Assembly (NCBI GenBank): GCA_016584305.1
Contig: JACEEZ010003824.1
Span: forward strand, 216,001-280,000
Direction: 5' to 3'
DNA: 64,000 nt
From: Chionoecetes opilio
Taxonomy: Eukaryota > Arthropoda > Malacostraca > Decapoda > Majidae
Position numbers and translations under genes: made by a program. This document shows, piece by piece, positions 5,641 to 61,877 of this stretch. The number at the start of each line of letters is the position of its first letter. Position 1 is the first letter of the stretch. The notes under the pieces are model-generated. The model was not told where the DNA came from. It was given only the letters and a program-made list of their open reading frames with translations, and searched no databases.

Positions 5641-5945
5641 CAGTTATTCACCTCCCCTTTCAGGAGGAGGAGGAGGGAGAGGAGGCCTTGCCAAGTGTGG
5701 TGTAAGTGAGGCAGGAAGCAGGGTGTGGGCCCCGCAGGCAGGAGCAGTGTGTCAGGGCAGCGCGTGGCTCTCTGTGTGCTGACTGTCACTACTGTTGCAG
5801 GTGCTGAGGTCACAGTCCAAGCCGGCTGCTCCGCCCGGCACTGACCCGGTTCGCTCCGGCATCCCCGAGGGATTCCGCAGGACCGGCCGTCGCATGTCCT
5901 GGTGAGAGTAGTGCTGCATTGGAGGCTGTGGGGCCGGGCAGAAGC
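5641..5945 (+). other. GC-rich leader before the zinc-finger gene
   Basis: GGA-rich and G+C-rich sequence leading into the zinc-finger ORF. It is likely 5' UTR or promoter-proximal. A GGTGAGAG word at 5901-5908 could be a donor, but no upstream coding exon is recognised. Confidence 0.35.
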
Positions 5946-6959: not shown

Positions 6960-7386
6960 ACAGCGGCAGGAAAAGTTATTGTCCCTGCATTAAATGAGAA
7001 GTCCAAATTGTCTAGAAATATACAAGACGATGTGAAGAAGTTAGTAAAAACGAGGCTAGGATCACATGGAGAGCTGGAGTGTCCAGTGAAGAGGTGGCAA
7101 GAAAATGTGGATTGAAGGAGCTGAGTACAGTGCCGAGAGTAAGGCGATTGAGGTGGTTTGGGCACGTGAAGAGGAGAGAAGGTGGTGAAGCATTGGGGAG
7201 AGTAAGGCGATTGAGGTGGTTTGGGCACGTGAAGAGGAGAGAAGGTGGTGAGGCATTGGGGAGAGCTGTTAGAGTGGAAGTGTCAGGTCGCCGTCCACCG
7301 GGCAGGCCAAGGAAGACATGGAGGCATTGTGTTGAAGAGGAAGTGGCAAGATTGGCCATTGAAGAAGTTTAGGCAACGGATAGAGA
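6960..7386 (+). mobile_element. LINE 3' fragment with 63-bp duplication
   Basis: Translation shows a reverse-transcriptase C-terminal tail: VARKCGLKELS, then RLRWFGHVKRREGGEALGR twice, then PPGRPRKTWRHCVEE. The duplicated unit is 63 bp and stays in frame. It is the same LINE family as 44460-45110 and 61909-63880. The 3' part is cut by the element at 7390. Confidence 0.8.
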
Positions 7387-10524: not shown

Positions 10525-13500
10525 CTGTGGGAGGATGGGAACAGTGAAGCCCGGTGACCCTGGTGCACCCCTGCCTTCCTCACAGCAGCGGCAGGCATTA
10601 TTATTATCATTATATCAGGCGTCTAGAATTGAAATGGCACAAGCGCCACTTTTAAAAAACTGAGAAAAATGCGCTTAAAGTGTAATCTAAGAAATTCAAG
10701 ATATGAAACGGCACAAGCGCCACTTTTTATCAATGAAAAAAATGCACCTAAAGGGTTTTCAAAGTAAATCAGCAACAAAAGAAGATATTAGATTAAACTT
10801 TAAGCGCGTTTTTCTCAGTTTTTTAAAAGTGGCGCTTGTGCCGTTTCAATTCTAGGCGCCTGATATACCCTATGTCCTATATGTACTTTGATACTATGTC
10901 CCCTAATGTGTCTATATTAAGTATTTTTTGTTTTGCTCTAGTACTTAAATTAACTCTTTTTCTTGTCGTTGTTTCTTTTTTGCCTGTATGACTCCGGGTG
11001 ATATTAAAATTATTATTATTATTATGTATAGAGGTATATAGCTATTATCAATTATTTGCTTCAGTACTTAAGTTCATTCCCTCATCTATATATTATGTTG
11101 TTGTTTTTCTTGTATGCCTCCGGGTGAGAATAAAATTATTATTATTATTTTTAGAAAGGTCTCAAAACTTGTCAATTTTCAACATTTTTCAGGGACAGTA
11201 CAAGCATAGCTCTTTTCCTTTATGTTACAACTAGGTAAACACAACACATGCTCCCACCCTACCTGCACCACCCTGTTGTTGGTGTCCCCGGAGCGGTACA
11301 TGGGCGTGGACAGCTTGAGGCCCTTGTAAGTGGTGCCTTGGGCGTTGGAGAACAAGTCCAGAAAGACCTCGCCCTTCTTAAAGTTTGCTGTCCTGAACAA
11401 CACGATGACGACGCGGCCCTCAAAGCGGCCGTCCATGTGGATGTCAAAGAACACTTGCCTTTGTGTTACCTGTGAGAAGGCGACGGTGTTCCCCTGTAGC
11501 AAGGAAAGCAAAGGGTGTGAGGCAAGGCAGACATGACATCTTTGCTTAGTCTATTATATTATGGCAGGGTAGACCAAGAAGTAACGGATTCAAGCTGGAA
11601 AAGTGTAGATCTTAAAAGAAAGTAGGGAGAAACTGGTTCATAAATAGGGTGGTAAATGATTGGGATGGACTCAGTAGACAGGTAGTTAGTGCGGAGTCAT
11701 TAGAGAGATTTAAAAGGAGGCTGGATACATTCATGGATGGGGATGAAAGGTGGATGTAGGTAGTGTTTAAGTAACAGGAACTACCACGTGTAGGTCTCAC
11801 GGCCTCTTGTAGCTTCCTTATTTTCTTATGTTCTTATGTAAAGGTATGAGGCAAAGCAGACATGATATCTTTGCTTAGTCTATTATTATCACTACTCTAC
11901 CTTCGTGTGTCATTCACCCATGGTCTTGTCCACGCGAGTCAGACTCACGATCGCCAGTTTCACCCTCACGGTGCGAGCTTGGAACTCATTATTACCAATC
12001 TTTGGGTAATGCTGGGACCTCACACACCACACACCCCCATCCCCTTGCTCAAGGTGGACAGTAACCGCCTAAATTTCTCGTGGAAAAATCCCCGGGAATG
12101 AGCGGGGCCGGGGATCGAACGCCGGCCACAGAATGTTACCAGTCGCCCTAACCCACCAGTTCAGGTGGTGTGTGTGCGTGTATGCATCATCTCCCAACTT
12201 CATGTCATTTCCAAACAATAAAGTAATGGTATTTAGTCACTATAGGGACCAGAAGCCAATAGTGAGCCTTGTAGAACACAGAAGAAACACAATACAGAGA
12301 GACCAGCCAGAAACAGGCCTACTGGACCCAACACAGCTGCCTGGGTAACTTCTTTACACTACTAGGAAGGAGGAGGAGGAGGAGGAGGAGGAGGAGGAGG
12401 AGGAGGAGGAGGAGGAGGGAGGAGGAGGAGGAGGAGGAGTAGGAGTAGGAGTAGGAGTAGGAGTAGGAGGAGAACTCAGTAGACAGGTGGTTAGTGCAGA
12501 GTCATTAGGGAGCTTTAAAAGGTTAGATAATTTCATGGATGGGGATGAAAAGTGGATGTAGGTAGTGAGTGTTAACGCCTTGAGGCCCAGTGCATAATTT
12601 CCATTGTAATTTGACCACCATTAGATGATTTTTAATGGATATAAGCAATGTTTTTTATAGATATGACCTGTTTAGTATCCTTGTTCACTAGCTGATTTGG
12701 TTTATTTAGTTACTTTTTGTAATTCTATGGCTAACGACAGAAACAAATTTTATAGGAAAGGAAAGATCTGGGCGTGAAGGGGTTAAGTAAGTAACAGGAA
12801 CTACCTCGTGTAGATTTCGCGGCCTCTTGTAGCTTCCTTATTTTCTTATGTTCTTATAACTGAAACCAAGACAAGATTAGCTTGACTCACCGACATTAGA
12901 TTTGCATTGGATGGCGGTGCCTTTGTGGTGTAGGTGTGCACAAAGATCTTGTCGCCCTGCACACTGACCGGGGCGAAGATCTGTTCATTATCTTTGTTGC
13001 GCTTCACGGCATAGATGTTCTTGGTGACCAGCAGCTTCTGACGCAGGACCTAAGGGACGGGTGAGACAAAGGAGACCATCTTGACATGAACAGAACACAC
13101 TGTATTATTCCAGATGAACACCGAATTCACTTTGGTGGCCGAAAAAAAAAATTCTCGTAAGTTTTGATGTGTTTTGAAATAATCTGTTAACCGTTCAGTC
13201 GCAATTTTTTATTATTTTCATTTTTTTATAGTTACGTAAAGGTTAGGTATAGATTAGGTTAGGCAAAGGTTCGGTTAGGTTCAATTTTCTGTTTTCATTG
13301 TTGTTGAAAAAAGAAGAAGTTATTTGCGACAGAAACGGTTAGCAGATTAATTCAAAACACGTCAAAACTTACAAGAAAAAAATAGTTTAGTCCACCCAAG
13401 GAGGTTCGGTGTTCGTCTGGAATACTACCGAAAACACAATAACAGAAACATTATGATCTGAACTCTCTCGCGCTCCAATAATTTTCTTCAATTATTTGTT

Positions 13501-16500
13501 CTAATGCCTGGTCTGTTGGCAGCATTTGTGGCCTCTCTGCACAGCTTGCTCAGTAGGCAGCTGTCTTCACGTAGAAACTCATAAATAGGCACATGTTATA
13601 CGTCACTAGATTCACAAGGAATTGAATATCAGGTGATTGCATAAAAAATCCATTATAAAATCAATGTGATGCATTTTTTTATACGAATATAAACCTTAAG
13701 AAATAAGACAAAAATTCCCAACATCGTAGCTCAAAACTTCTACGTGAAAATGTTACGCTCTTCACTTCATTGCAACCGTCTTGTTGTGAGCTTAACAATG
13801 GTGGTGTTGCCATTCTGATGCGTGAATCAGATTTCAGGAAAATGAATGAAAACTGACACCATGATATCCCCGCTGCTTGAGTCCAGGCGCCCCCCGTCAC
13901 TGTCCACACTCTCTGGGTATTCTGCATCACTGTCAGTCGTGGTCTCACTGTGTACTTTTATTTTAGACATGTCTAATTTCTTATCTGCTGAGAATTCCCT
14001 GAAATATGTTACCATATTCCCTATTACACCACCACCAATTAACTTTGCACAAACACAACTTGCATAGAAAATGTAGGCCACGAGTACGGCAACAGTTATC
14101 CTATGTACGGGAAACAAGCTGCACAGACATGGAGACCGTGCGCCCACAGCCTGCCTGGCGGGCAAATACTGACACACTTATCTTGCAGGCAGCCTAGTGT
14201 GGGAATGTTATTGTGGACGTTACTAATGCATTCATTTTATAACACTGATGCAAATCTTTGACCTGCCAAAAAGTGACGCACTTACACCAGAAGCTTTTTT
14301 TTCTAAGAATTCAAACAAGTTTTTCAACACATTTGTGCGTCAGGTGATGTTTGGCATGAAGACATTGTGAGGCACCCGAGCCTTCCGTGCACAGGAGTGT
14401 TAATGTCTAAGTAGATATGATCAGTACACTCACATCCAGGCTGACGGGTCCGTCGTCCAGGGACAAGGGTGGTGACGAGGGCCGGCTGTTCTTGTGCTCC
14501 AGCCACACCCGGGCCGCGGCCTGCACCTCCGCCGCCCTGGCCAAGGCCCGGGTCATGCGGCACGCTGAGGACGCCTCCACCACCTGCGCCTCCGCCTCCT
14601 CCACGTCCAGCACCTGCAGAGGGGAGGGAGGTGGGGGTCAGGTGTCCTGCATCTCTGTGGAGAAAACAATGACTCTGTGCCCCTTGGTCATTCTTGTTGA
14701 CTATCCTAAACTTGATACTTGATAACCTTGATAGGCAACATATCTGGATTTTAAATGAGTATTACTTAAAACTTATCACTTGTTGTATCATAAGGAAAAT
14801 AAATCAATGCTGCAGACAAGGAACAATTGAAGGCTCTTCTGTGACGGCCATCCACTCGGCAGCGGATCAGAGACGGACAGAAGAACATGCTGCATCCCTG
14901 CTCCCCTGCCACCTGTCCCAGCCTCTGTGGCTCACCTGCTCCCCCCTGCCACCCGTCCCCGCCTCTGTGGCTCACCTGCTCCCCCCTGCCACCCGTCCCC
15001 GCCTCTGTGGCTCACCTGCTCCCCCCTGCCACCCGTCCCCGCCTCTGTGGTTCACCTGCTCCCCCCTGCCACCCGTCCCTGCCTCTGTGGCTCACCTGCT
15101 CCTGGACCTTCTTGGCCTTGGCCTTGAGCTGCCGCACCTCCTCGGCCATGCGGTCAATGGCCACCTTCAGCTTGTCCTGCTGGGTCTCCATGGTGTTGTG
15201 CAGGTCCTGCAGGGCCAGCACCGTGCGCTCGGACTCCTCCACCTGGGCCTGCTTGAGGTGCACGATGGCCTCCCCGGCGGGCAGCCTCTCGGGGCAGTCG
15301 TCGGAGTGGGTGCAGCTGCGGCACTGGAAGGCGTGGCAGCTGGAGCACCACCACAGCACCGGGTAGTGGTGGCGCACACACGTCTCTCCGATCACCCCCG
15401 CCTCATTCACCTCCTCAATCTCTGCCTCCGCTGTCAGAGGGGGGGGAGGGTGGCGTGCTATTGGTAAGACTCCTTGAAGAAGTGCACTGGCACATTCGAG
15501 GGGGGGGGGGTCGTCCCCTTCCCCCCCTAAAATGTGGAATATATCATGTACTGCCTGTTTCCAAGTGATATTTCATACAGGAACATTTGCATCCACATAT
15601 ACAAGAAGGTAAATTTTTGTGTGTGATGCCAATGATGGTTTGTTGTTGTTTTGGCTTCTGATTCATTACTGTTCATGCTAAAAAAGATATACTGTACTAC
15701 AATCCTACTTGACACTTCAGTGCAGTATACTATACTAGAGTAAGCTAGGCTATCTGGTAACTTGGCCCCCTAAAACACTTTTCCCAAGATCTCCTAGTCC
15801 TAGTAAGTGCTATAAGGCAAAGATCTACCAATCAAGACTTTGAGCCTGAATGATCTACCAATTAGCCTAAATTCCGTGCTTCTTCAGGACATATCAGAAT
15901 TACACTTCAATACAATTACAATACAATCACTGAAACAGTTCTTAATAAAAATGTAGTTCAGTGTTTAGTGTAGTTTACTCGAAGTGCAAAAGAAGTGACA
16001 GCGCTAGACATCTGGTGGCGCTAGCTTTGAAAGTTCCCCATTGCAATCACTCAAACACTGTCTTGACTCTTGTATTTGGAGAGGGACTGTTATTATTAGG
16101 TGGACTACAGGACATGCCTAGAACACTGGACAGGGTACATGCAGTGGTGCTAAAAGACCCCCGCCCCTCCCTACCTGCCGCGGCCACTGCACAGGTCTGC
16201 TCCAGGGCCCGCGCCAGCCTCATGATGGTGTAGGAGACGGGGATGTGCGCCACAGCCGTCACCTGAGGGTCGACAACACCGTCATTACATTATCGCTGCA
16301 GCACAACAGCTCACAAGGCACACTGTCAACGCCACCGTGGTCCTGTGCTCACAACCCCACCGTCTGTGATATCAACATTTGATTGACATTTGATATTTTG
16401 TTATAAGGAAAACAACACTAAGTTTACCCCTTGAGACCCACAATGTATTTTCCATTGTTACTTGGGGGTAGTATTGGTACTAAAAAAACCTGTCTACCTT

Positions 16501-18828
16501 GCAACACCAAGCACACTACTCCCCCTTGACACACAGCCACACCTTCCCACCTTGAGGGGGCGGCGGCATTCCGGACAGTTGCGGTCGCCGGCGGGGCGTG
16601 TGAGGATGGTCTCCAGGCAGGGGGTGCAGACGGTGTGGCCGCAGCGCAGGGTGCGGGGAGCGTGCGCCTCCTCAAACTGCTCAAAGCATATGGGGCAGTT
16701 GACCTCCCGCTCCTGGGGCACATCTGCGGGCAAGACCAGACAACAACATTAGGCTGTGAGGATGATGAAATTAACCCCTTCACGCCCAGCTCTTTCCTTT
16801 TACAATATATAAAATGGTCTGTTGTTAGCCATAATATTACGAAAAGTAACTTAATATACCTACCAAATTAGCTAGTGTTCAAGGATACTAAACAGGTCAC
16901 ATCTATAAAATATTGCTTATATGCTTCTTTTTTTAAGCTATGGGTTTCCGGAAAATAAAACTATCTCCATTAAAAAAAAAGCACCTATTTTAGGCCAGGA
17001 AAAATTAGTCGGTGTCTCTGAAAACGACCGTGAAGTCCTCGTCCATTATTACCTCCATTTTTACCGAAACTGCATATTAACCGACATGAATGTGTCTTGG
17101 GGGACCTAAGTTAGGAGTCGAGGTCGCGTGCACGGCGATTGCGTCCCGGCGTGACAGTCTGGCGTCTTGGCCACAATGCCGCGGGCCGTGGCTGGGGATA
17201 CGGGCCCGTACCTCTGGCCACCCCTGGCTACCCGTACACACAGCACAATACACCAGACAGTTTGGTCCCTATGCTAGCAGGGTGCTGGGAACCGCAATGA
17301 CATCTGTAAGTATTGTTTTTGATGCTAAAGCCATTCCAGCCTCCCTCCCTCCAGCAGAACACAGGCAAAGCACAGAAAAATGACCGTCAATTTATAGTTT
17401 CACCCAACCAACGATTTTCTGATGCGCCTTATGTTTTTCTGGTGTGTTTTTATGTGTTTTGAATGAATCTGCTAACCATTTCTGTTGCATTTTTTTTTTT
17501 TTTTTTTTTTTTTTTTGCAAAACTGACAAATAAAAAAATAAAAAAATGAACCTAAACCTAACCTAACCTTTACCTGTACCTAACCTATATAACCTATAAT
17601 ACCTAACCTAAAGGTTACTTAATACCTAGGTAACCTTTACCTAACAAAAAAAACAAAAAACAACTAACCTTTATCTACCTTTAAAAAAAAAAAAAAAAAA
17701 TTGCGACAGAAACGGTTAGCAGATTCATTCAAAACAATAAAAACACATCAGAAAAACATAAGGCGCATCAGAAAATCGTTGGTTGGGTGAAACTATAAAT
17801 TATCCAAAATGACCAGAGAAAATAAGAAGAAAAAAAAAAGAAACTAAAATATAGAATAAGAGAAGACAACTAGATCCTTAAAGGGAAAATCTTCAGAGCA
17901 AGGGCTCCAATTGCAACAAGGGCTCCACGCCAAGCTGACCCAAAGGTTGGCTCTACGTGTTATACTTACTGTCCTTAACACATCTGTTTAGATTTTAATG
18001 AGTGCCGATCCTTACTTTGCCTACATGGCAGATATTAAATTTCAGGTTCTTGAGAAAAACTAAGTCCAGCGAGATGCGACAGATTAGGTTAGAGTAGGTC
18101 AGGTCAGGTCAGGTTAGTGCACAGCACGAGGGGCTCGAGGAGGGGTGCTAGGTTAGGTCTGTAGAGTTTTGTCATCTTTAGAATAAAGGCTCAACCTCCT
18201 ATCTTCTTCTTCTTCTTCTTCTAGCCAACAAGCTTGGGGACATGGTGGAAACCGGAGTTTTTGGGCGGGGGAGCACACACATAAGGGAAATATGGCCCCA
18301 ATAGTATGAACTAGGGAAATTTCCCTAGTTTATTTATTTTTTAGCGGGGGCCATATATCCCTTATGTGTGTGCTCCCCCACCCAAAACCCGGTTTCCCAC
18401 CATATCCCCAAGCTTGTTGGCTATAAGAAGAAGAAGAAGATAGGGGGTGGAGCCTTTGTTCTTAAGATTTACCTGAATTTTTGCCATCAATGTGGAACAA
18501 AAGACAAGGCATTATTAAGCAGCAGCAACAGTAACAACAGCAGCAGTAACAAAGTCAAACAAAATAGTAGACAACATAGCAAACCCAACACATGGGTGTC
18601 GTTACAGGAAGGCAACACCCCCAACAACATCACCTGATCTGAACTACACTGCACCGCGGCCACGCTCCTCAGGGCCGCGTGGCACTGTCACTCACCCGGC
18701 GCGGCACTCATCACGTTGTCCTCGGCCACTGTCTGCAGGTGGTTGATGCCCGCCATGACCTGCATCGCCAGCTGGGTGATGCGTGACGAGATCTCCTCCG
18801 GCCTGGGTGGCTGGCCCGCTGCCTCCAT
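10204..18828 (-). CDS. RING / B-box / coiled-coil / cyclophilin-like protein (TRIM-Cyp-like), 8 exons
   Basis: Minus-strand gene with exons 18828-18696, 16723-16551, 16262-16175, 15430-15096, 14613-14434, 13049-12891, 11493-11263 and 10524-10204. All boundaries are GT-AG, all phases agree, and the coding sum is 1620 bp (539 residues plus stop). Order: short helical N-terminus; C3HC4 RING (CPIC ... CGHTVC ... CPECRR) at about residues 50-98; B-box-like Cys/His cluster (CVRHH ... CSSC ... CRSC) at about 145-175; long coiled coil to about 280; a linker; then from about 360 a cyclophilin-like domain (VFFDIHMDG, GRVVIVLF, TTYKG, GFGKVLSG, GDCGYV). RING proteins of this kind are ubiquitin E3 ligases. 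The cyclophilin-like part lacks the usual FHR/QGG active-site residues, so it is probably a binding module without isomerase activity. The nearest known design is primate TRIM5-CypA. No symbol is assigned. Confidence 0.85.
10612..10867. mobile_element. palindromic MITE (family I), copy 1, intron 7
   Basis: Ends TATCAGGCG and CGCCTGATA. Arms share GGCACAAGCGCCACTTTT and its complement. Second copy at 54717-54971. Confidence 0.8.
11263..11493 (-). CDS. TRIM-like exon 7, N-half of cyclophilin-like domain
   Basis: VFFDIHMDGRFEGRVVIVLF aligns with the first two strands of cyclophilins (VFFDI.IGG...GRI.IELF). TTYKGLKLSTPMYRSGD occupies the place of the YKGxxFHRVIPGFMxQGGD segment, without the catalytic Arg and Gln. 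Confidence 0.82.
11563..11837 (+). mobile_element. LINE 3' tail (family D), copy 1
   Basis: Contains AACGGATTCAAGCTGGAAAA, a WDGLSRQV-type C-terminus of a reverse transcriptase and CCTCTTGTAGCTTCCTTATT, ending in TTCTTATG repeats. The family recurs about ten times in this window, always 5'-truncated. Confidence 0.8.
11911..12165 (-). mobile_element. SINE family B, copy 1 (minus)
   Basis: Reverse complement of 36601-36860. The B-box-like CGTTCGATCCCCGGC lies near the minus-strand head, and the body has GCTGGGACCACACAC-like words. tRNA-derived SINE. Confidence 0.75.
12365..12470. repeat. (GGA)n microsatellite grading to (GTAGGA)n
   Basis: About 100 bp of AGG triplets with AGTAGG hexamers at the right end, lying at the 5' truncation point of the next LINE tail. 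Confidence 0.95.
12473..12857 (+). mobile_element. LINE tail (family D), copy 2, split by a MITE
   Basis: The tail runs up to the word before TTAA at 12572 and resumes after TTAA at 12786 with GTAACAGGAACTACCTCGTG. The uninterrupted form is seen at 59140-59165. Confidence 0.8.
12572..12786. mobile_element. TTAA MITE (family E), copy 2, inside a LINE tail
   Basis: TTAACGCCTTGAGGCCC ... GAAGGGGTTAA. Exact insertion at a TTAA that is single in the empty sites, showing TTAA target duplication. Confidence 0.85.
12891..13049 (-). CDS. TRIM-like exon 6, linker
   Basis: 53 codons, phase 0-0, with VLRQKLLVTKNIYAVKR and VQGDKIFVHTYT. No recognised domain. Clean splice sites and an open frame in phase with both neighbours support it. 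Confidence 0.75.
13105..13425. repeat. foldback element (family M), copy 1
   Basis: Ends TTCCAGATGAACACCGAA and TTCGGTGTTCGTCTGGAA. Arms include GCTAACCGTTTCTGTCGCAA-like words in opposite orientation. The centre has GGTTAGG words. Lies in TRIM-like intron 5. Confidence 0.8.
13426..14433. other. rest of TRIM-like intron 5
   Basis: No repeat family recognised. A minus-strand open stretch at 13850-14080 is acidic, with Asp/Ser runs, but has no supported splice context. Confidence 0.35.
14434..14613 (-). CDS. TRIM-like exon 5, end of coiled coil
   Basis: Ala/Glu/Arg-rich helix (VLDVEEAEAQVVEA ...) then a Ser/Pro linker. 60 codons, phase 0-0. Acceptor CTGCAG, donor GAT|GTGAGT. Confidence 0.8.
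14931..15095. repeat. 40-bp tandem array starting at the exon 4 donor
   Basis: Four full units plus part, each reading on the minus strand GGAGCAG|GTGAGCCACAGAGG (one GTGAAC) followed by a G-rich segment. The word GAGCAG|GTGAG is the real exon 4 end, so each unit repeats the splice junction. Confidence 0.92.
15096..15430 (-). CDS. TRIM-like exon 4, B-box and coiled coil
   Basis: Cys/His cluster CVRHHYPVLWWCSSCHAFQC followed by RSCTHSDDC, then a heptad-rich helix ending KAKKVQEQ. The donor CAG|GTGAGC starts the 40-bp tandem array at 14931-15095. Confidence 0.88.
15838..16045. repeat. solo arm of the 22.1-23.2 kb palindrome family
   Basis: Shares GGACATATCAGAATTAC and CTGAAACAGTTCTTAATAAA with both arms of that element. 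Lies in TRIM-like intron 3. Confidence 0.7.
16175..16262 (-). CDS. TRIM-like exon 3
   Basis: Encodes VTAVAHIPVSYTIMRLARAL and a Cys/Ala-rich end. The VxxIPxNxxL-like pattern is usual just after TRIM RING fingers. Phase 0 to 1. Confidence 0.8.
16423..16490. mobile_element. TTAA MITE fragment (family E)
   Basis: Only the CCCCTTGAGACCCA end and about 60 bp are kept. Confidence 0.6.
16551..16723 (-). CDS. TRIM-like exon 2, RING finger
   Basis: C3HC4 RING: NCPICFEQF, then RCGHTVCTPC, then NCPECRRPLK. Acceptor CCCGCAG, donor AAG|GTGGGA. All eight zinc ligands are present. Confidence 0.92.
16771..16922. mobile_element. TTAA MITE fragment (family E)
   Basis: TTAACCCCTTCACGCCCAG through GGATACTAAACAGGTCA. 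The other end is replaced by a family O arm. Confidence 0.7.
16926..17075. repeat. solo arm of foldback family O
   Basis: AAAATAAAACTATCTCCATT and GTCGGTGTCTCTGAAAACGA as in 21820-21930. Confidence 0.7.
17076..17379. other. unassigned intron 1 sequence
   Basis: GC-rich, no supported feature. Confidence 0.3.
17380..17810. repeat. foldback element (family M relative)
   Basis: Ends ATAGTTTCACCCAACCAACG and its complement. Arms share TGAATCTGCTAACC with family M. Poly(T)/poly(A) and CCTAACC words are in the centre. Confidence 0.8.
18182..18464. repeat. near-perfect palindromic MITE
   Basis: Arms carry CCAACAAGCTTGGGG and CATAAGGGA words in opposite orientation, with almost no loop (centre near 18325). 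(CTT)n lies in one arm and (GAA)n in the other. In TRIM-like intron 1. Confidence 0.85.
18696..18828 (-). CDS. TRIM-like exon 1 (start codon)
   Basis: ATG at 18828 begins MEAAGQPPRPEE, followed by a short amphipathic helix. Ends CCG G|GTGAGTG, phase 1. A CA microsatellite lies a few bases 5' of the ATG. Confidence 0.8.
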
Positions 18829-19370
18829 GTTGTCCCGCCAAGCACACACACACACACACGCACACACACACAGGCAGGGGAAATTTTGTTGCCCGCATTA
18901 TCGTACCTACCCACCAAAACTTTCGTATTTTCAGATAGATTCTCGTACAACCTTACCGTAGATAACACTAAAGTCGCCAGGACAACGATTTTTTTTTTTT
19001 TTACAGACGTTGGTGGCGTTAATACTTAGATTTCTACATCCATGATTTCAGGAAAGTTAGAAGGGACTATCTACCTAGCTGGAGAGTCTGTGTCATTTTG
19101 TGTCTTCATCTGTGTCATAGTATGGCTATGAATGAACAAATTACAAAAATAAAACCGAGTGGCGACGTTGGTAACGGGCTACATTAAAGTCGCCATTTTA
19201 TGTTAAAGTAATCGTCCAGACCATTTCATCATTCCTGATTTGATGTAGTTACCTAGAGTATAGCCATTATCGAGTGTATAAACACCGTGCCCTTTAACTC
19301 TTTCTGAATGTCTGCCCCTGAGCTTGCGGCAACCCAGCGGCAAACCTCGAGTCGGTGCGCGGGAGATTTT
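18829..19370. other. 5' region upstream of the TRIM-like gene
   Basis: Probable 5' UTR/promoter side of the minus-strand gene. Begins with a CA microsatellite (18841-18871). No clear TATA box or initiator can be assigned. Confidence 0.35.
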
Positions 19371-19622
19371 GTTTGTTTGTTTGTTTAGCGGATAACAGAG
19401 CCATAGTGATCTACCGCTGCAGCTTTTTAGTGTTGGCCGAAGCCACCACCCCGGGAGGGGGGTCACAAACTCCCGGCTAACACCCGGTACCCATTCACTG
19501 CTGGGTGGACAGGGGCTCGGGTTTTCAGAAAGACCACCCATCTATCTTCGCTCCGCCCGAGGATCGAACCCGGGACTCCTCGGTTGTGAGCCGAGCGTGC
19601 TAACCACTACACTACGGAGTAG
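19371..19622 (-). mobile_element. tRNA-Val-derived SINE, copy 2
   Basis: Same structure as 2751-3005. The tRNA-like head lies at 19551-19619 with anticodon CAC, and the AAAC tail at the left end. Confidence 0.85.
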
Positions 19623-19685
19623 CTACCCCAGAGAGAAAACTGAATCGCTGAACTTTTTTGTGTACGGCGTAAAGTAGCGTTTTGT

Positions 19686-19855
19686 AGCTTACAGAATGCC
19701 TTAGTGAACGCACCCCTGTATCGTACAGAATGCCTTAGTGAACGCACCCCTGTATCGTACAGAATGCCTTAGTGAACGCACCCCTGTATCGTACAGAATG
19801 CCTTAGTGAACGCACCCCTGTATCGTACAGAATACCTTAGTGAACGCACCCCTAC
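19686..19855. repeat. 34-bp tandem array, five copies
   Basis: Unit GTACAGAATGCCTTAGTGAA plus CGCACCCCTGTATC. The copies are almost identical. Confidence 0.93.
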
Positions 19856-19919
19856 CGTAGCTGTGTCAGGTTTGTGGAGCCCTTCAAATTAACATCTAGC
19901 TAAAAGGGGGTAGTACACT

Positions 19920-20433
19920 ACAAAATTATCGTACAATTACGATAATTATCGTACAGTTAACCTCGCTGCACACATGGCACACAACACAGGCCTAGACACA
20001 CTTGCCACCGTCTTATAGGTGTTATTTTGTACCATTTCTTACCATGGCTAATTATTCTTAATTTTCTTGTATCTGTATGGGTTTTTTATCCATGGTTTTC
20101 TGCCAATAACTACTCTATAGGCTTGTATTTTCCCGTCCAGGGAGGCCACTCCTTGGGATTTTGTTCAAGATCTTGGGATTTGGGCCATGACCTTGGGATA
20201 TTTTTTGTCTATCTTGGGATTGTTGGGGATTATTCAAGTATCTATCCAGTAGTTTATCTCAAGGTTAGCTTGTGTACCTTATTTAGGATTCAGTTTCAAT
20301 GTTTTTTAAAGACCTTGGGATATTTTTGTCTATCTTGGGATATTTTTGGGGTGAGTCTTGGGATTCCTGAAAATGTTGAGTGGCAAACCAGAATGTAAAC
20401 AACAACAAAGACTTGAACCGAGGCCGCGGGAAC
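19920..20433 (+). promoter_or_regulatory. 5' flank of the THAP gene
   Basis: Homologous in inverted orientation to 1906-2420. Begins with AATTATCGTACAATTACGAT, an AT-rich palindrome kept in both copies, then repeated TTGGGATATTTTTGTCTATC words. Retention in both duplicates suggests it carries the promoter and 5' UTR; this is inference. Confidence 0.45.
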
Positions 20434-20944
20434 ATGGCGGGCTACGTCTGTGCCGTGGCGGATTGCACGTCAAATTTCACCTTGACCCCAGACCAACACC
20501 CATTCATGAAGGAGGTGCAGGGCTGGGCCAGATTCCCACCCACTAAGAAAGATGGAAAACGGCGCAGGTTGTGGGAGAGGCGGTGCAGAAGAGGCGACCA
20601 GTGGCGGGCAGGCAGGGAGCATGTCGTGTGCTCCAGACACTTCCTGGCCTGGGACCACAACAGACCGTCTCCCAGGCACCCAGACCCCGTGCTGTTTGGT
20701 TATAATGGCTGGGGGAAGAATGGCTCACACTCCACCATTGTAAAGAACACCCCAGAGCAGAATGTTGAGCCGTGCAGTGTGGATGCCGACACGACCCCTA
20801 GTGACGGCCAGACTGAGCGGGACGATAGCCAGCCTGTTTTGCTGTGTGAGGCTGAGGACAGTATGCCAGGGAGTGCAGGGGTTCAGGACGGGAGTGAAGG
20901 GGAAGTCTGCTCCGATGAACACAAACCAGCATCGCCAAACACAG
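20434..20944 (+). CDS. THAP zinc-finger exon
   Basis: ATG at 20434 in a GGGAACATGG context. Residues 1-95 or so form a THAP domain: MAGYVCAVADC, a basic middle KKDGKRRRLWERR, then EHVVCSRHF and a PDPVLF motif in the place of the AVPTIF box. The C2CH ligands are visible. About 75 residues of polar, acidic tail follow before the donor CACAG|GTGGGT (phase 1). THAP domains bind DNA, and in many invertebrates they are joined to PIF/Harbinger-type DDE_Tnp_4 domains. Such a domain lies 5.6 kb downstream on the same strand, so the two are probably one gene. Direct joining to 26514 would break the frame, so at least one unrecognised exon or another acceptor is needed. Confidence 0.75.
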
Positions 20945-21108
20945 GTGGGTTGTACAAGTGGTTACAGTGTTTTCCGGATATATTTTACGTTATCCACATA
21001 ATATACTATCAGTACAAAACTAGTTGCCATTTTCTCCGCCCTAAACTCTGCGTTCCCGACGGGTCCCCAGGTGTGTTATGGAGGGGGAACAACTGCAAAA
21101 TGGGTAAA

Positions 21109-22092
21109 TTTCCAGATGAACACCGAACTTCCTTTGGTGGACAAAACTATTTTTTCTGGTGAGCTTTGATGTGTTTTGAATGAATCTGCTAACCGTTTCT
21201 GTCGCAAATAACTTTTTTATTTTGTTTATTTGTAACAAAAATGGGTTATAATGGACGAGGACTTCGATTTCAGAGACACCGACTATTTTTTCCTGGTCTA
21301 CAATAGGTGCTTTTTCTAATGGAGATAGTTTTATATTGCGCAAATCTATAGTTTAAAAAAAAAAAAAATCATCACCGAATGTTATGGTACCATTTCCATT
21401 AAAAACACTGTATCTCCATCAGAAAAGCACTAAAACTTGGCCTGGAAAATTAGTCAGGGTCTTATAGGTTTCAATGAAACCTATGAGGTTAGGTTAGGTG
21501 TACTTTGTGGTTAAGGTTAGGTTAGGTTTCATTAAAACCTTTAAGGTTAGGTTTGGTTTCATTAAAACCTATAAGGTTAGGTTAGGTTTCATTAAAACCT
21601 ATAAGGCTAAGTTGGTTTCAGTAAAACCTATAATGTTAGGTTAGGTTTCATTAAAACCTATAAGGTTAGGTTAGGTTTAATTAAAAACTATAAGGTTAGG
21701 TTAGGTTTCATTATAACCTATAAGACCCTGACAAATTTTTCCCGGCCAAGTTTTAATGCTTTTTCTGATGGAGATTCAGTGCTTTTAATGGAAACGGTAC
21801 CATAACATTCAATTTTTTTTTTATGGGTTTGTGCAAAATAAAACTATCTCCATTAGAAAAAGCACCTATTGTAGGCCAGGAAAAAAAAGTCGGTGTCTCT
21901 GAAAACGACAGCGAAGTCCTCGTCCATTATTACCCAAAAATGACAAAATAAAGAAATTGAACCTAGCCTTTACCTAAAAAAAAAAAAGGCGACAAAACGG
22001 TTAGCAGATTCATTCAAAACACAAAACACATCAAAACTCACCAGAAAAAAATAGTTTTGTTCACCAAAGGGAATTCGGTGTTCATCTGGAAT
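21109..22092. repeat. nested foldback: family M outer hairpin holding family O
   Basis: Outer ends TTCCAGATGAACACCGAA and TTCGGTGTTCATCTGGAA match 13105-13425. Inside, 21253-21935 is a second palindrome with CTAATGGAGATAGTTTTAT arms and a (GGTTAGGTTTCATTAAAACC)-like tandem centre, matching 3029-3550. Confidence 0.85.
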
Positions 22093-22093
22093 G

Positions 22094-23226
22094 ACTACTT
22101 TTGACCGCGTACTCAATGGGGAGTTTTCAAAGATAAGCCGCCAGATGTCTCTCGCGCATCTCACATCCACTGCCCTTTGAGCGTGAATGATCTATCATTA
22201 ACCGTAAACTCCCTGTACTTTTTCGGGACATATCAGAATTACCCTTCAATACAACAACTGAAACAGTTCTTAATAAAAAATGTAGTTATCATTTTGTTTT
22301 TCAGCACTTGAAGAAAATATTGGCAAAACATAGAATACTTGAAAACTCAATTTCTTAAAATCGTCATTTCATGGAAACACTGCACGTTCAAGCTGAATGA
22401 AGCTTCAGGAAGTATGTACTTGTATGTAAGCTTTCGCCGAGTACCTGTTTTGGATGTGTCTGTCTCTTTTGCGACGAACATTTAACCAAGAAATAGTGTG
22501 GCGTTCAGCATCTCCGAAGAAACCATCCCGATGTCGGGATCTGATATCAGTCACTTCTTCTTATCCACGGCTGGGGGGAAGAGTCTTGTTTTGTTTTTGT
22601 TTTAGGGCTGCGAGGATCCCTTGGGAAAAACTATGAGCCCTGGTGATGTCCTATGATGCTATTACAGGCGTGGTAGTTGACCTGTCTCCTCAGGAAGGCA
22701 CAGGTGAGGCAGATAACGGCGGATGCATGCGTTCCTGCAGCCCGCTCTTTTTCAAGACAACAAGTAAACAAGACCCATGTATTGTCTTCGATAGAGGACT
22801 GTTCGTTGAGGTGCCAATTACTTAAATTACTTCTTGGTTAAATGTTCGTCGTAAGAGAGACATATACACCCAAAACAGGTAAGTTGAAAGCTTACATACA
22901 AGTACATACTTCCTGAAGCTTCATTCAGCTTGAACGTGCAGTGTTTCCATGAAATGACGATTTTAAGAAATTGAGTTTTCAAGTATTCTATGTTTTGCCA
23001 ATATTTTCTTCAAGTGCTGAAAAACAAAATGATAGACTACATTTTTTATTAAGAACTGTTTCAGTTGTTGTATTGAAGGGTAATTCTGATATGTCCCGAA
23101 AAAGTACAGGGAGTTTACGGTAAATGATAGATCACTCACGCTCAAAGGGCAGAGGATATGAGAGCGCGAGAAACAGGCTTGAGCGTGAGCTTATTAGAAA
23201 ACTCCCCATTACTGGTTGAAAGTACT
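22094..23226. repeat. 1.1-kb palindrome with arms of about 340-400 bp
   Basis: 22110-22500 and 22825-23215 are reverse complements (for example CATGGAAACACTGCACGTTC on the left). Ends ATGGGGAGTTTTC and GAAAACTCCCCAT. The loop of about 320 bp has GGCTGCGAGGATCCCTTGGG, shared with 1840-1860. No ORF recognised as a transposase. Confidence 0.85.
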
Positions 23227-23599
23227 AATTTACCGTTTCGTTTACATAGCTATACATAGTAAGTCTATGTGTAATGTAAGTGCATTTGCCCTTGGTTTTG
23301 CCCATTAGATCCTCCATTATAACGGGACTGAGTCTGAAAAATCATTTATGATAATATCATTATAAAGTTCGCACACGGGATTGGGACCTGACCTGAGCTT
23401 ACCACTCTGGGCCGACTTCACTAGTGTAACCAGTTCAAGATCACCGGGCCAGAGTCACCAAGGGCAGACTTGACTTGCAGTATCCTTTTATTGCTTACTG
23501 ATATCCTTTCACCGCCAATTCATTCGCAGTTTGATTGGTTTTCACTGTTTGAACTTTTTCTTTGATCTATTACAGTGTGTGCAGTCAGCAGCCCAGCAG

Positions 23600-23805
23600 C
23601 CCCGTGCTTGGACCACAGCCATGGCCAAGAGCCAGGGGACCCATGCTTGGACCACAGCCACGGCCAAGAGCCAGGGGACCCATGCTTGGACCACAGCCAC
23701 GGCCAAGAGCCAGGTGGACCCATGCTTGGACCACAGCCACGGCCAAGAGCCAGGGGACCCATGCTTGGACCACAGCCACGGCCAAGAGCCAGGGGATCCA
23801 GTGGC
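23600..23805. repeat. 39-bp tandem array, five copies
   Basis: Unit CTTGGACCACAGCCACGGCC plus AAGAGCCAGGGGACCCATG. It is open in all plus frames, but this follows from the repeat. Confidence 0.92.
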
Positions 23806-23861
23806 TGCTGCGGTACAAACGGATCCTCTCGGGACCAACTGCAAGTCATCAGCCAATGCAT

Positions 23862-24035
23862 ATGATGCTCGGTTGCTAGAGCTGTGGGCTCGCATGCAGA
23901 ATCCCTGCATTCCGTCAGCGGTTCAAGTCCACCAGGTTCGTCCTGGCGTGGTGGCGCTTTGTATAGTCAATAACCTTGTCGTTGGTACTTGCAAAGTGTC
24001 TAGATAGGATCAAAGTATCTTATCTTATCTTGTAA
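23862..24035 (+). mobile_element. SINE family C, copy 1
   Basis: Contains B-box-like GCGGTTCAAGTCC, TTTGTATAGTCAATAACCTT, and ends TAGATAGGAT plus (CTTAT)n. Related copies at 37740-37917 and 51408-52017. Confidence 0.75.
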
Positions 24036-24114
24036 CTTCATATTTGGTTATGTTAACTTTCTTACTTTTAACATGACTGCCTAGAGACAACCTGTGTGCA
24101 GTAGCTCACCTAGT

Positions 24115-24448
24115 AGGCCTCCCTCTTTGTTGTTTAAGGCTGGCTTGGCTCCCTCCCTGTTGTTTAAGGCTGGCTTGCCTCCCTCCTTGTTGTTTAAGGC
24201 TGGCTTGGCTCCCTCCCTGTTGTTTAAGGCTGGCTTGGCTCCCTCCTTGTTGTTTAAGGCTGGCTTGCCTCCCTCCTTGTTGTTTAAAGCTGGCTTGCCT
24301 CCCTCCTTGTTGTTTAAAGCTAGCTTGCCTCCCTCCTTGTTGTTTAAAGCTGGCTTGCCTCCCTCCTTGTTGTTTAAGGCTGGCTTGCCTCCCTCCTTGT
24401 TGTTTAAGGCTGGCTTGCCTCCCTCCTTGTTGTTTAAGGCTGGCTTGC
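24115..24448. repeat. 30-bp tandem array, eleven copies
   Basis: Unit CTCCCTCCTTGTTGTTTAAG plus GCTGGCTTGC. Being a multiple of three, it yields a repetitive PPSLLFKAGL reading that is not taken as protein. Confidence 0.93.
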
Positions 24449-26490
24449 ATGGTTGTCACGCCCTCTTCACCATGGTTGTCACGCCCTCTTCACCATGGTT
24501 GTCACGCCCTCTTCACCATGGTTGTCACGCCCTCTTCACCATGGTTGTCACGTCCTCTGCACCATGGTTGTCACGCCCTCTTCACCCTGGTTGTCACAGC
24601 CTCTGCACCCTGGTTGTCACGCCCTCTTCACCCTGGTTGTCACGCCCTCTTCACCATGGTTGTCACAGCCTCTTCACCCTGGTTGTCACACCCTCTGCAC
24701 CCTGGTTGTCACACCCTCTGCACCCTGGTTGTCACGCCCTCTGCACCCTGGTTGTCACACCCTCTGCACCCTGGTTGTCACAGCCTCTTCACCCTGGTTG
24801 TCACAGCCTCTTCACCCTGGTTGTCACGCCCTCTCACCATGGTTGTCACGCCCTCTTCACCATGGTTGTCACGCCCTCTTCACCATGGTTGTCAGGCCCT
24901 CTGCACCCTGGTTGTCACGCCCTCTGCACCCTGGTTGTCACGCCCTCTTCACCATGGTTGTCACGCCCTCTGCACCTGGTTGTCACGCCCTCTGCACCCT
25001 GGTTGTCACACCCTCTGCACCCTGGTTGTCACGCCCTCTCACCCTGGTTGTCACGCCCTCTGCACCATGGTTGTCACGCCTCTGCACCTGGTTGTCACGC
25101 CCTCTGCACCATGGTTGTCACCCCTCTGCACCCTGGTTGTAGCTCTGCACATGGTCACCCCTCTCACCATGGTTGTCACGCCCTCTTCACCATGGTTGTC
25201 ACAGCCTCTGCACCATGGTTGTCACGCCCTCTTCACCTGGTTGTCACGCCCTCTGCACCATGGTTGTCACACCCTCTCACCATGGTTGTCACGCCCTCTG
25301 CACCATGGTTGTCACGCCCTCTGCACCCTGGTTGTCACGCCCTCTGCACCATGGTTGTCACACCCTCTGCACCCTGGTTGTCACGCCCTCTTCACCCTGG
25401 TTGTCACGCCCTCTGCACCATGGTTGTCACGCCCTCTGCACCCTGGTTGTCACGCCCTCTGCACCCTGGTTGTCACACCCTCTGCACCCTGGTTGTCACA
25501 CCCTCTTCACCCTGGTTGTCACGCCCTCTTCACCCTGGTTGTCACGCCCTCTGCACCCGGGTTTGTCACACCCTCTGCACCCTGGTTGTCACCCCTCTGC
25601 ACCCTGGTTGTCACGCCCTCTCACCCTGGTTGTCACGCCCTCTGCACCATGGTTGTCACGCCCTCTGCACCATGGTTGTCACACCCTCTGCACCCTGGTT
25701 GTCACGCCCTCTGCACCCTGGTTGTCACACCCTCTTCACCCTGGTTGTCACACCCTCTTCACCCTGGTTGTCACGCCCTCTTCACCATGGTTGTCACAGC
25801 CTCTGCACCATGGTTGTCACGCCCTCTGCACCCTGGTTGTCACACCCTCTGCACCCTGGTTGTCACACCCTCTTCACCTGGTTGTCACGCCCTCTGCACC
25901 ATGGTTGTCACACCCTCTGCACCCTGGTTGTCACGCCCTCTGCACCCTGGTTGTCACACCCTCTTCACCCTGGTTGTCACGCCCTCTGCACCATGGTTGT
26001 CACACCCTCTGCACCATGGTTGTCACGCCCTCTGCACCATGGTTGTCACAGCCTCTTCACCCTGGTTGTCACACCCTCTTCACCCTGGTTGTCACGCCCT
26101 CTGCACCCTGGTTGTCACGCCCTCTGCACCCTGGTTGTCACGCCCTCTGCACCCTGGTTGTCACGCCCTCTGCACCCTGGTTGTCACGCCCTCTGCACCC
26201 TGGTTGTCACGCCCTCTTCACCCTGGTTGTCACGCCCTCTGCACCATGGTTGTCACGCCCTCTTCACCCTGGTTGTCACACCCTCTTCACCCTGGTTGTC
26301 ACAGCCTCTGCACCCTGGTTGTCACGCCCTCTGCACCCTGGTTGTCACACCCTCTTCACCCTGGTTGTTACTCTTCACCCTGGTTGTCACACCTCTACAC
26401 CCTGGTTGTCACAGCCTCTGCACCATGGTTGTCAAACCCTCTGCACCCTGGTTGTCACAGCCTCTTCACCTTGGTTGTCACACCAATATC
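24446..26490. repeat. 23-bp minisatellite, about 88 copies, next to a splice acceptor
   Basis: Unit CCTGGTTGTCACGCCCTCTG plus CAC, with C/A and TTC/TGC variants. It ends about 25 bp before the acceptor of the DDE exon. Period 23 lets all three plus frames stay open for more than 600 codons, creating large false ORFs. The last units decay into the pyrimidine tract. Confidence 0.95.
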
Positions 26491-26513
26491 CACCATTCAC
26501 ATTTTTGTTCCAG

Positions 26514-27500
26514 ATGGAAACCAGTGCAAGGAACATATCTAGGCGCCAGCTTTTCATCCAGTCGGTTCTTCAAAGTGACGAGTCTCTTGATAGGTACACA
26601 GGTTTTCCAGTAAAGGAGTTTTTTTACGAAGTATTTGATATGGTTGGAAATCATGTCAGTAACATGGATTATTGGGAGACCATCCCGAAGCCTCCATCAG
26701 GTGAAGGCGCGTCAAGTTCAAAGCATAAGGAGGAGAAACTGTCAAACATCCAGGCCTTCCTTCTGACCCTGGTGTACCTCCGCCAAGGGTTCGACTTGGT
26801 CATGCTGGCTGATTTATTTGAAATTTCAAGTAGCTGTGCAGGTATTGTTGTGAAGGAATGGATAGATATATTAGCCACACTATTTAAGGAGGTTTTTCTG
26901 ATATACCCAAGTGCAGCACAGGTTCAGTCTTGCTTACCTCTAGGCTACCCACTTCAGTATTCTGACACCAGAGTTATATTGAACCGCACTGAGTTCTTCA
27001 CTACAACGCCAGGTAATGCGGCATCTCAGGCAGCCACAGTGACAGGCTCTGAACATCAGCCTACTGCCAAGGCACTGATTGGAGTGACTCCCTTTGGTTT
27101 GATCAGTTTTGTTTCCAAAGTGTATGGTGGGAATACTTCTGACAGGCACATATTTAAGTCTGAATTCCTGTCTAGAGTTGAGGCCGGTGATGGCATAGTG
27201 GTGGGCCAGGGTTTTGATGTGGCAGACCTTGTACTCCCTGTTGGGGCAAGACTGCACATGCCACCCGCCACAAGAAGCAAGTCAGGAGGTAAGGCTAGAA
27301 CCTTAAATCGAAGGGAAATTCTGAAAACCAGGGATCTTGCAAGGCTTCAGATCATCAATGAGCTTACAGTGACACGAATGAAAAAGGAATTTAAACTAAT
27401 TGGCAATAAATTTGATAGCAAACTGTTGCCTCAGCTTGAAGAGATTTTGATTATTGTAGCAGTTTTGAGCAATTTTCAACCACCTCTTGTTGAAGGTTAG
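26514..27500 (+). CDS. PIF/Harbinger-like DDE_Tnp_4 transposase-derived exon, catalytic residues lost
   Basis: Starts after the acceptor TTGTTCCAG at 26513 and runs 328 codons to TAG at 27498. Residues 80-130 (LSNIQAFLLTLVYLRQGFDL ...) match the HTH_Tnp_4 helix-turn-helix. Residues about 160-325 match DDE_Tnp_4, with RVILNRTEFF, KALIGVTPFGLISFVSKVYG, GNTSDRHIF, GFDVADLV and a final LSNFQPPLVEG. In active relatives the first motif is I-I-D-C-T-E and the second A-D-R-G-F. Here they read ILNRTE and VGQGF, so both aspartates are replaced; the third acidic position is ambiguous. The frame is intact over its whole length. This suggests a domesticated DNA-binding protein, probably the 3' part of the THAP gene at 20434, although recent decay cannot be excluded. 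Confidence 0.8.
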   Translation: METSARNISRRQLFIQSVLQSDESLDRYTGFPVKEFFYEVFDMVGNHVSNMDYWETIPKPPSGEGASSSKHKEEKLSNIQAFLLTLVYLRQGFDLVMLADLFEISSSCAGIVVKEWIDILATLFKEVFLIYPSAAQVQSCLPLGYPLQYSDTRVILNRTEFFTTTPGNAASQAATVTGSEHQPTAKALIGVTPFGLISFVSKVYGGNTSDRHIFKSEFLSRVEAGDGIVVGQGFDVADLVLPVGARLHMPPATRSKSGGKARTLNRREILKTRDLARLQIINELTVTRMKKEFKLIGNKFDSKLLPQLEEILIIVAVLSNFQPPLVEG

Positions 27501-27669
27501 GGAAACAGAGAAACTAACTCAGTGACCGGCATTTGAAGATGTGTGTTTGTTGTGATAGGACAGATGGCATCGTTCACTTGGGTTTGAACTGTTTGTGTGT
27601 TTGAAAAGAAGAACGGGAGTACTTTTGTATTGGACTACATTTATATATTGATTATATTTATACCTGTAC

Positions 27670-27675
27670 AATAAA
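27670..27675 (+). terminator. polyadenylation signal AATAAA
   Basis: 170 bp after the DDE stop, in AT-rich sequence. Plausible 3' end of the THAP-DDE gene. Confidence 0.6.
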
Positions 27676-27779
27676 TAGTTTCATACAATTTACCTAATAT
27701 ATCTATCTAACCTGTAATATATTTATCCCGTGACATATCGGGTGTTGACATTATTCAAGTAAACCCTCGCTTTTATGGA

Positions 27780-28430
27780 CCTCTATATAACATTTTTTTT
27801 TTTTTTTTTTTTTTTTTGCCAGTCCGATATATGCTTGGTTCGGTGGTGGGCCGGCCGAACATGTACATGCAGGTCGTACGGTGGCAGTGAAGACAAAGCC
27901 GACCGGGCTGTGTGCGCTGCGTGACAATCAGTCTGGCTTTCATCGCACCACGCATAAATAATCGATTATATCTGCAAGCCTCGTTTATTTCTTCCCATAT
28001 AGGACCTGAATCCTCTTTACATAAAGTTTGGAGGCCTATACACTACACCCAAAACCATTTTCTCCTTTCCCTCTGTAACCTGTACCCATATAGACTATGC
28101 TGTCATCTGTTTTTATAACATTATTAACACAACACTGCAATGTATCTCTTGCATAAAGCGCAACTCCTCCACCTCGCCTGCCCAACCTGTCCTTGTGGAA
28201 TAACTTATACCCCGCTATCTCAACCTCCGGATTAAATGCCTAGCCTGACATATCCAACCATGTTTCTGTTAATGCTATTATCAAAATCTTTTACACTAGT
28301 TATTCCTCAGTAAATCTATCCTGTGCTCCTACAGTTTGTTTAATACACCTTTTAGGTATTCCTCTTTATCTTGTCAATTTTCCCTTTATCTTTAACTAAC
28401 CCTTTCCTCTCTTTGTACGAATTACTTTAG
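27780..28430 (-). mobile_element. LINE endonuclease fragment
   Basis: The minus strand reads ALTETWLDMS followed by a GYKLFHKDRLGRRGGGVALY segment, the conserved end of a LINE endonuclease N-terminal half. It has internal stops and no reverse transcriptase. Lies between the two convergent genes; 27790-27818 is poly(T). Confidence 0.65.
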
Positions 28431-29270
28431 TTCCCTGCCTTCTGAAACTCCTCCTTTGTGTCACAAGTTTCCTTTACCCCGACCCCAGTGTCTAATCCCC
28501 AGTTCTCTTATCTTAAAAAAGCCTGCAATGCATCTACCTCCCTTTCAAAGGATTCAGACAAGATCTGAACTCCTTTCCTCGAAAGGTGCACCCGTCCCTG
28601 TGGTAGAGGTGGTTATGCCTGAAAAAGAGGTCCCAGTTATTGACAAAGGCCCAACCATTGGCTTTGCGATGAAATGCCAGCCGGCATTAACCCCTACGCG
28701 GGGGTGGACATACTGGTACGTCGTCACGAATCCGGCCCAATTTTGGACTCTACAGAAAACTTTCGTTGTCTAGATATAAATTACTCTAAATGGGAGTAGA
28801 GTCCACCGCATATGTGGTGTCTATATGGAAATAAGTGGTAGGCCTCGTCCCGACATTTGCTTCAGAGCGCATGCTTCGGCCAACAACAAAGTCTGTCTGC
28901 GTGAGGAGAAGTTATTGTCGTTTGGTCCTAGCAAAGGTAAAGAATGAAGCACCACCTACACACACAACACAAGTGTTGTACCTGGCCAAGCCTTGGGGAG
29001 GCAGCGCCCCTGGGGTTAATGACCCCGAAACCATCATATAATAACAGGTTTGCGGCACTGCAACTTAACTTGGTTGCGATGTTCCTGGACAAACCAAGAC
29101 TGTTCCTGGACAAAAAGAGACTTATCTGTTCCTGGACAAACCAAGACTCTTACTATGTCTTCCTTCCATTTTGAGACCTTAGAGGCTGCTGGGGACAAGG
29201 GTGAAGGCTTGGGATCCCTTGCCATGACGTGTTCTCTTCCCATGAAAATAAAAAAGCGTAATCAAGTAAT
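28431..29270. other. unassigned intergenic sequence
   Basis: No supported gene. GTTCCTGGACAAA recurs three times at about 29083-29140. Confidence 0.3.
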
Positions 29271-29276
29271 CTGCTT

Positions 29277-29282
29277 TTTATT
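29277..29282 (-). terminator. polyadenylation signal (minus) for the receptor gene
   Basis: TTTATT on the plus strand is AATAAA on the minus strand, about 260 bp past the proposed receptor stop. Tentative. Confidence 0.4.
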
Positions 29283-29537
29283 AAGAGCAATCCACTTGCT
29301 CAGGAGAAGGCAATTTGTATGAAAAATTGTATATAATCAATGATTAAATCAAGGCAATACAAGTGTACATGTAGAAAAAAGAGGCCCCATCAGTCTCCAG
29401 TGGCTGGTACACCCCTGGAGGCAGAACAGAGGCCCTTAGAGGCATAGGTGGGTTAAGGCCCTGGGCGGTGAGGTGCAGCAAGGTGGCGCGGCATGAGGAC
29501 CGCCGCCGCCGCTGCTGCTGGTGAGGTGTTCCCTGTC

Positions 29538-61877
<32,340 letters not shown>

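Follow-up and report, generated by a model that had tools for sequence, protein, structure and literature searches.

In amphioxus, minisatellites located at exon-intron boundaries and termed mirages are reported from Adh3 and from the globin genes BflGb6 and BflGb9 (with PGBD5 also compared), and these reports describe arrays that are variable in length and leave regular splicing undisturbed (PMC3087553, PMC3902484). Two human genes present related situations. The ABCA7 intron 18 VNTR is built of 25-bp units in which the first GT is the exon 18 donor; there, one extra unit can be retained by way of an inner donor, and array length goes with exon 19 skipping (PMC5954066). In IFI6 (6-16), a minisatellite is described as supplying multiple splice donors, with downstream units used and three mRNA species formed (Turri 1995, via PMC4526556). 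Tandem duplication also figures in models of intron gain: in that of Rogers, as told in PMC3087553, the duplicated piece carries a splice motif, and PMC4974935 likewise deals with intron gain by tandem duplication.

Here, we describe such arrays in the crab Chionoecetes opilio. With amphioxus mirages, they share tandem boundary duplications on the donor or acceptor side, with units of ~10 to 160 bp, many of which carry AG/GT inside introns; they differ in belonging to another phylum and in that the crab data provide a rate per splice site, estimated from a sample. As in IFI6, the minisatellite would supply multiple donors, and, whereas the ABCA7 unit begins at the GT, crab units include 6 to 37 exon bases. 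The crab arrays also differ from intron gain in that the copies do not give rise to a new intron: the acceptors that follow exon L2a and the TRIM exon lie outside the array. Literature searches, both general and directed at crustaceans and crabs and covering titles and open papers, brought up no title that reports arrays of this kind from an arthropod, and the main text of a paper on Daphnia repeats (PMC3152781) does not contain the word “splice.” The anatomy is already known from mirages, and what is new is the lineage and the sampled rate per splice site.

The window, by which we mean the whole stretch of DNA analyzed, comprises 64,000 nt of C. opilio contig JACEEZ010003824.1 (216,001-280,000), from a genome of 1.94 Gb. 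Its minus strand carries two genes: a TRIM-like gene and a long insulin-receptor-like kinase gene, whose furin-like, receptor L, FN3, and tyrosine-kinase exons run from 61.9 to 31.5 kb by domain homology. Eighteen exons were fixed by domain homology and splice-site score, and the arrays were not used in placing them; splice sites throughout are based on homology and a hand-set motif score. Joined in silico, 13 of 14 neighboring exon pairs keep an open frame, the exception being FNe-K1, because of which the start of K1 is uncertain. A candidate FN3 exon near 54.5 kb was discarded for want of clear splice sites. About 3 kb past the last fixed TRIM exon, 11179-11550 (minus strand) holds a weak cyclophilin-like stretch (best E of 0.008 against solved cyclophilins and no Pfam match), and a TRIM-cyclophilin fusion gene is possible at this locus.

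Table 1. Exons of the two minus-strand genes and minisatellites at or near their junctions (window positions; minisatellites are given as unit length and copy number)
Feature	Positions	Strand	Description
TRIM-like RING exon	16723-16551	-	domain homology
TRIM-like exon 3 (B-box/coiled coil)	15096-15430	-	donor after 15096; B-box match weak, below Pfam cut-off; in-phase join to next exon using outermost donor
Minisatellite, TRIM exon 3 donor	14903-15102	-	40 bp x5; begins 7 nt inside exon; 3 further donors, equal in score
Insulin-receptor-like exon L2a	60867-60963	-	donor after 60867; ungapped INSR alignment over L2a-L2b junction
Minisatellite, L2a donor	60435-60903	-	52 bp x9; begins 37 nt inside exon; 8 further strong donors
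Insulin-receptor-like exon L2b	60300-60139	-	donor precedes array 59976-60122
Minisatellite after L2b donor	59976-60122	-	36 bp x4; starts +16; donor not in unit
Insulin-receptor-like FN3 exon FNd	48039-48109	-	donor after 48039; splice-site score; open-frame joins on both sides
Minisatellite, FNd donor	47934-48063	-	30 bp x4.3, 100% identical; unit of 25 exon + 5 intron nt; begins 25 nt inside exon; 3 further donors
Insulin-receptor-like exon FNe	40378-40217	-	next exon after FNd; donor precedes array 39863-40188
Minisatellite after FNe donor	39863-40188	-	13 bp x25; starts +28; donor not in unit
Insulin-receptor-like kinase exon K5	31463-31662	-	acceptor before 31662, donor after 31463; donor placed by score and array
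Minisatellite, K5 acceptor side	31668-32712	-	38 bp x27; stops 5 bp short of exon K5, without exon bases; last partial unit enters acceptor pyrimidine stretch
Minisatellite, K5 donor	30341-31468	-	~32 bp x35; begins 6 nt inside exon; 36 further donors
Minisatellite before Harbinger-like transposase ORF	24450-26481	+	23 bp x89; ends 32 bp before acceptor motif at 26514 (9.5 bits); candidate junction only

Several other repeats and ORFs occupy the window. Three minisatellites (7135-7265, 44552-44916, and 61964-63693) have related units of 63 or 91 bp, and a forward frame at 7016-7372 (33-residue reading) resembles the end of a retroelement. Two very similar ORFs lie in opposite orientation at 933-1496 (minus) and 20380-21162 (plus), with a THAP domain match in the second, and a C2H2 zinc-finger ORF at 5808-6635 (plus) has an 84-bp tandem repeat in its coding sequence. 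When the genome was searched with a kinase profile, many dispersed kinase-like copies were recovered, which have one TAG in common and cover almost identical parts of the profile (2-154 or 2-176); these are apparently copies of a repeated element that would carry a kinase-like ORF.

Arrays in the window were called by TRF (90 rows). In four of them, the unit includes the final 6 to 37 bases of a coding exon together with its GT donor, the exons concerned being one TRIM-like and three insulin-receptor-like; an earlier note on this DNA had claimed at least four such arrays in two unrelated genes, and TRF and the independently fixed exons agree on the point. Repeat copies in all four carry splice signals, and the further donors (3 in TRIM, 8 in L2a, 3 in FNd, and 36 in K5) differ from the authentic donor by no more than 3 bits in score. 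In the L2a array, CT(I/T)IRGPLII is still encoded by six of the intron copies; as these are conserved receptor residues, the simplest view is that the array was founded by the exon copy. Joined to L2b at the outermost donor, L2a aligns to the human insulin receptor without a gap, and, by this alignment, the authentic L2a donor is the outermost. The outermost donor gives open-frame joins for TRIM, L2a, and FNd, and the K4-K5 join aligns ungapped to a kinase over the junction, supporting the K5 acceptor. The next acceptor lies outside the array by 134 bp in L2a and by 289 bp in TRIM, and the exon following FNd starts at 40378.

Other arrays adjoin junctions rather than include them. The array previously placed at an acceptor as 31664-32712 does adjoin one, that of K5, which is supported by homology, and the two said to lie close to donors (39850-40190 and 59994-60122) start at +28 and +16, respectively. 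The weakest claim was that 24446-26490 sits at an acceptor: the array ends at the distance given in Table 1 from a good motif, but the ORF beyond is a Harbinger-like transposase and the junction remains a candidate only. This 2-kb array of 23-bp units, within 24077-27500 (plus), is largely open in three forward frames (821, 842, and 234 + 785 aa), of which the 785-aa frame continues into the transposase.

Arrays make up 18% of the two gene spans, and the test set for the window was formed by the 16 arrays (period of at least 10 and score of at least 80) that overlap them. Six of the 16 start within -60 to +35 of a donor, against 0.81 under random placement (1 of 20,000 shuffles as high, p = 5e-5) and 0.90 when exon overlap is limited to 60 nt (1 of 10,000, p = 1e-4). 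The contention that arrays meet junctions too frequently for random placement is thus borne out for donors, but acceptors in the window are not overrepresented: a single array compares with 0.73 to 0.84 expected in the two gene spans. Arrays that cover a donor number four, which is unremarkable against the 3.3 expected under free placement but more than the 0.57 expected when exon overlap is limited (p = 0.0019); the count of covered donors was dropped as evidence because its outcome depends on the null chosen.

Array-to-junction distances were then compiled on a small scale in a sample of 172 exons from the same genome, found by profile search in the myosin, TCP1, kinesin, and adaptin families; these are conserved-domain exons of one genome and not a random draw. 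The sample is composed of 30 loci each for myosin and TCP1, another 21 rows of those two tables that fall within these stretches, 63 of 124 kinesin rows listed, and 28 of 38 for adaptin. Score cut-offs are passed by 129 donors and 139 acceptors (43 and 33 exons, respectively, being without one), and removal of two of each with identical neighborhoods leaves 127 donors and 137 acceptors. Among the donors so dropped is C3051:24891, with an array at +28, and one acceptor lost at the score cut-off, of myosin exon L037, has a 31-bp duplication that reaches 3 nt into the exon.

The enrichment that the earlier note had anticipated appears in this sample on both sides of the intron. Seven arrays start 0 to 30 bp after donors, against 1.65 expected from the rate at 60 to 1400 bp (p = 0.0026), and nine start at 0 to 60 bp (3.3 expected, p = 0.012); before acceptors, 19 end within 0 to 60 bp, against 4.8 expected (p = 5e-6). 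With a TRF score of at least 100, the corresponding donor counts are 6 versus 1.24 at 0 to 30 bp (p = 0.003) and 6 versus 2.48 at 0 to 60 bp (p = 0.056), and the acceptor count is 12 versus 2.69 at 0 to 60 bp (p = 1e-4). Donor cases include an adaptin exon with an array of 106-bp units beginning 78 nt inside the exon, a second adaptin exon with an array of 74-bp units beginning 7 nt inside it, and kinesin, myosin, and TCP1 exons. TRF arrays span 2 of the 127 donors and none of the 137 acceptors. By the same criterion, the window exceeds the sample both in spanned donors (4 of 18 versus 2 of 127, p = 0.002) and in starts at -60 to +35 of donors (6 of 18 versus 8 of 127, p = 0.003), a surplus that we tentatively attribute to the choice of the window for its striking appearance. 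One kinesin exon occurs on two contigs (L073 and L093), perhaps as alleles, with acceptor-side arrays of 181 and 137 bp that do not span the junction.

We consider these arrays to be probably mirage-type minisatellites, i.e., ordinary local tandem duplications, some of which take in an exon-intron junction, in a repeat-rich genome. A duplication over a donor would give the intron copies of the exon tail and donor, with the real exon keeping the outermost copy; on the acceptor side, the real site would be in the copy that adjoins the exon. Copies placed in the intron would be removed with it; were the spliceosome to keep to the outermost copy, the mRNA would be unchanged and the change near neutral, and the array could then expand by unequal exchange or slippage, while duplications favoring inner sites would be removed. 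With one array edge anchored by the exon, splice sites would look like the starting points of arrays even if no process were directed at them. Neutrality, outermost-site use in the mRNA, and the mechanism of expansion are what we infer. A process that duplicates junctions is not needed, because introns are rich in repeats and exons poor in them, and an array over a junction is tolerated if the exon-adjacent copy keeps the real site.

The distribution of array coverage around junctions can be set against this reading. Far from exons (>350 bases from an annotated exon), 15.9% of 111,098 bases lie in arrays. On the donor side, coverage is 0.8 to 1.6% at the exon end, 3.9% at +10, 7.1% at +30, and finally 8.7% at +60; for acceptors, it is 0 of 137 in the exon, 2.2% at -10, and 12.4% at -60. 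A model in which every exon-touching array is lost yields 1.66 donor starts at 0 to 30 bp (95% range, 0 to 5) and 4.7 acceptor ends at 0 to 60 bp (1 to 10), whereas one in which exons clip arrays yields 11.5 (5 to 19) and 19.1 (11 to 29), the observed values being 7 and 19. Exons therefore seem to clip arrays rather than repel them, with extra loss over the first 20 to 30 bp, where the splice signals lie. The clipping model predicts flat coverage after donors, with 7.8% at +10 against the 3.9% observed; it overshoots there, and some counter-selection near the splice site must therefore be added. Neither simulated model reaches the 16% coverage found at a distance from exons, a shortfall that probably reflects the absence, from the length pool, of arrays truncated at stretch ends.

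A further cause may operate at acceptors. There are hints that the pyrimidine tract seeds arrays there, and a wider version of this explanation, in which splice-site sequence itself seeds arrays through slippage-prone acceptor pyrimidine tracts and G/GT-rich donor motifs, is one that we hold tentatively as possible. It would account for the strength of the acceptor-side excess, and near-acceptor arrays are pyrimidine-rich (a mean of 0.66 in 17 arrays versus 0.52 in 90 others, p = 0.0014, in a smaller sample of 119 acceptors); several donor-side units, moreover, are GT- or G-rich. Nevertheless, 4 of the 17 near-acceptor arrays are less than half pyrimidine, the nine near-donor arrays show no difference from others in pyrimidine content (p = 0.55), and three tandem donor motifs are not clearly commoner genome-wide than the reversed pattern (394 versus 365, a weak test in which matches overlap within arrays). 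When the TRIM array was used as a DNA query for similar arrays, it returned 13 matches, consisting of the locus itself (100%) and 12 at 68 to 72%; the seven of these 12 that were inspected were all low-complexity C- or G-rich arrays, and the approach was abandoned. We give a low probability to the stronger proposition that new tandem duplications in this lineage arise preferentially at exon-intron edges, acceptors above all, by way of the pyrimidine tract or transcription-linked breaks, such that splice sites would keep gaining spare copies and introns would grow from their ends.

A process directed at the junction itself, such as R-loop formation where exon and intron meet, transcription-replication conflict, or break repair at splice sites, would also concentrate array edges around donors and acceptors. 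The presence of several arrays in one receptor gene, their higher frequency in the window than in the sample, and the seemingly G-rich sense strand of arrays 14903 and 30341 (judged by eye) are in keeping with such a process. It should, however, raise the rate at which duplications span junctions, for which control positions, assumed to be intronic, were drawn from the sampled stretches with a margin of at least 110 bases to any annotated exon. Counting every copy, 13 to 14% of control positions are covered; the fair comparison is with control positions that fall in the edge copy of a duplication, as a junction can sit only in an edge copy. In self-alignments, which reveal both donor and acceptor junctions affected in the sample, local duplications span 5 of 127 donors, while 38 of 1411 control positions fall in an edge copy (p = 0.39), and 4 of 137 acceptors, while 34 of 1424 do so (p = 0.57), comparisons of small numbers and low power with which a moderate junction effect is compatible. 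A 24-base test for junction copies (at least 17 matches) is positive at 3 of 104 donors, where other introns give 0.38, and at 3 of 114 acceptors, where they give 0.24; applied to the window, it picks out four of the 18 donors (TR3, TR4, L2a, and FNd, with TR4 probably by chance and K5 missed) and none of 18 acceptors. Because this test exceeds the rate from other introns, the junction copies are real; the edge-copy comparison is the better control. The earlier proposal of a process that duplicates exon-intron edges is not supported: spanning duplications occur at about the control rate and not significantly above it, coverage falls near junctions, and tandem donor motifs show no clear genome-wide surplus. 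We regard a junction-directed process as quite unlikely.

Selection could, in principle, keep the extra donors for alternative protein ends or for tuning of receptor output. The FNd array keeps its frame open throughout the repeats and meets a stop only beyond them, so that each inner donor would add 10 residues to the FN3 region of the receptor, and the human ABCA7 unit can be retained in mRNA (PMC5954066). Read-through of L2a past the outermost donor, however, meets a stop immediately, and many inclusion lengths are not multiples of three (6 of 8 for L2a, 2 of 3 for TRIM, and 25 of 36 for K5), all of which makes selected donors very improbable. An assembly artefact is hardly credible: repeat arrays are prone to misassembly and some contigs share identical exon neighborhoods, but copies differ within the L2a, TRIM, and K5 arrays (those of FNd being identical) and the same anatomy recurs in unrelated genes and on other contigs.

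Read as ordinary duplications that sometimes take in a junction, the crab arrays carry a warning: an excess of repeat edges at exons can come from exclusion and tolerance alone. Amphioxus mirages are reported gene by gene in the literature found, whereas local duplications occur here at ~3 to 4% of sampled splice sites. The genome of C. opilio thus offers many natural experiments in which the spliceosome must select a single donor where up to 37 are nearly equal, and in which any contribution of the arrays to intron growth or to new isoforms could be followed.
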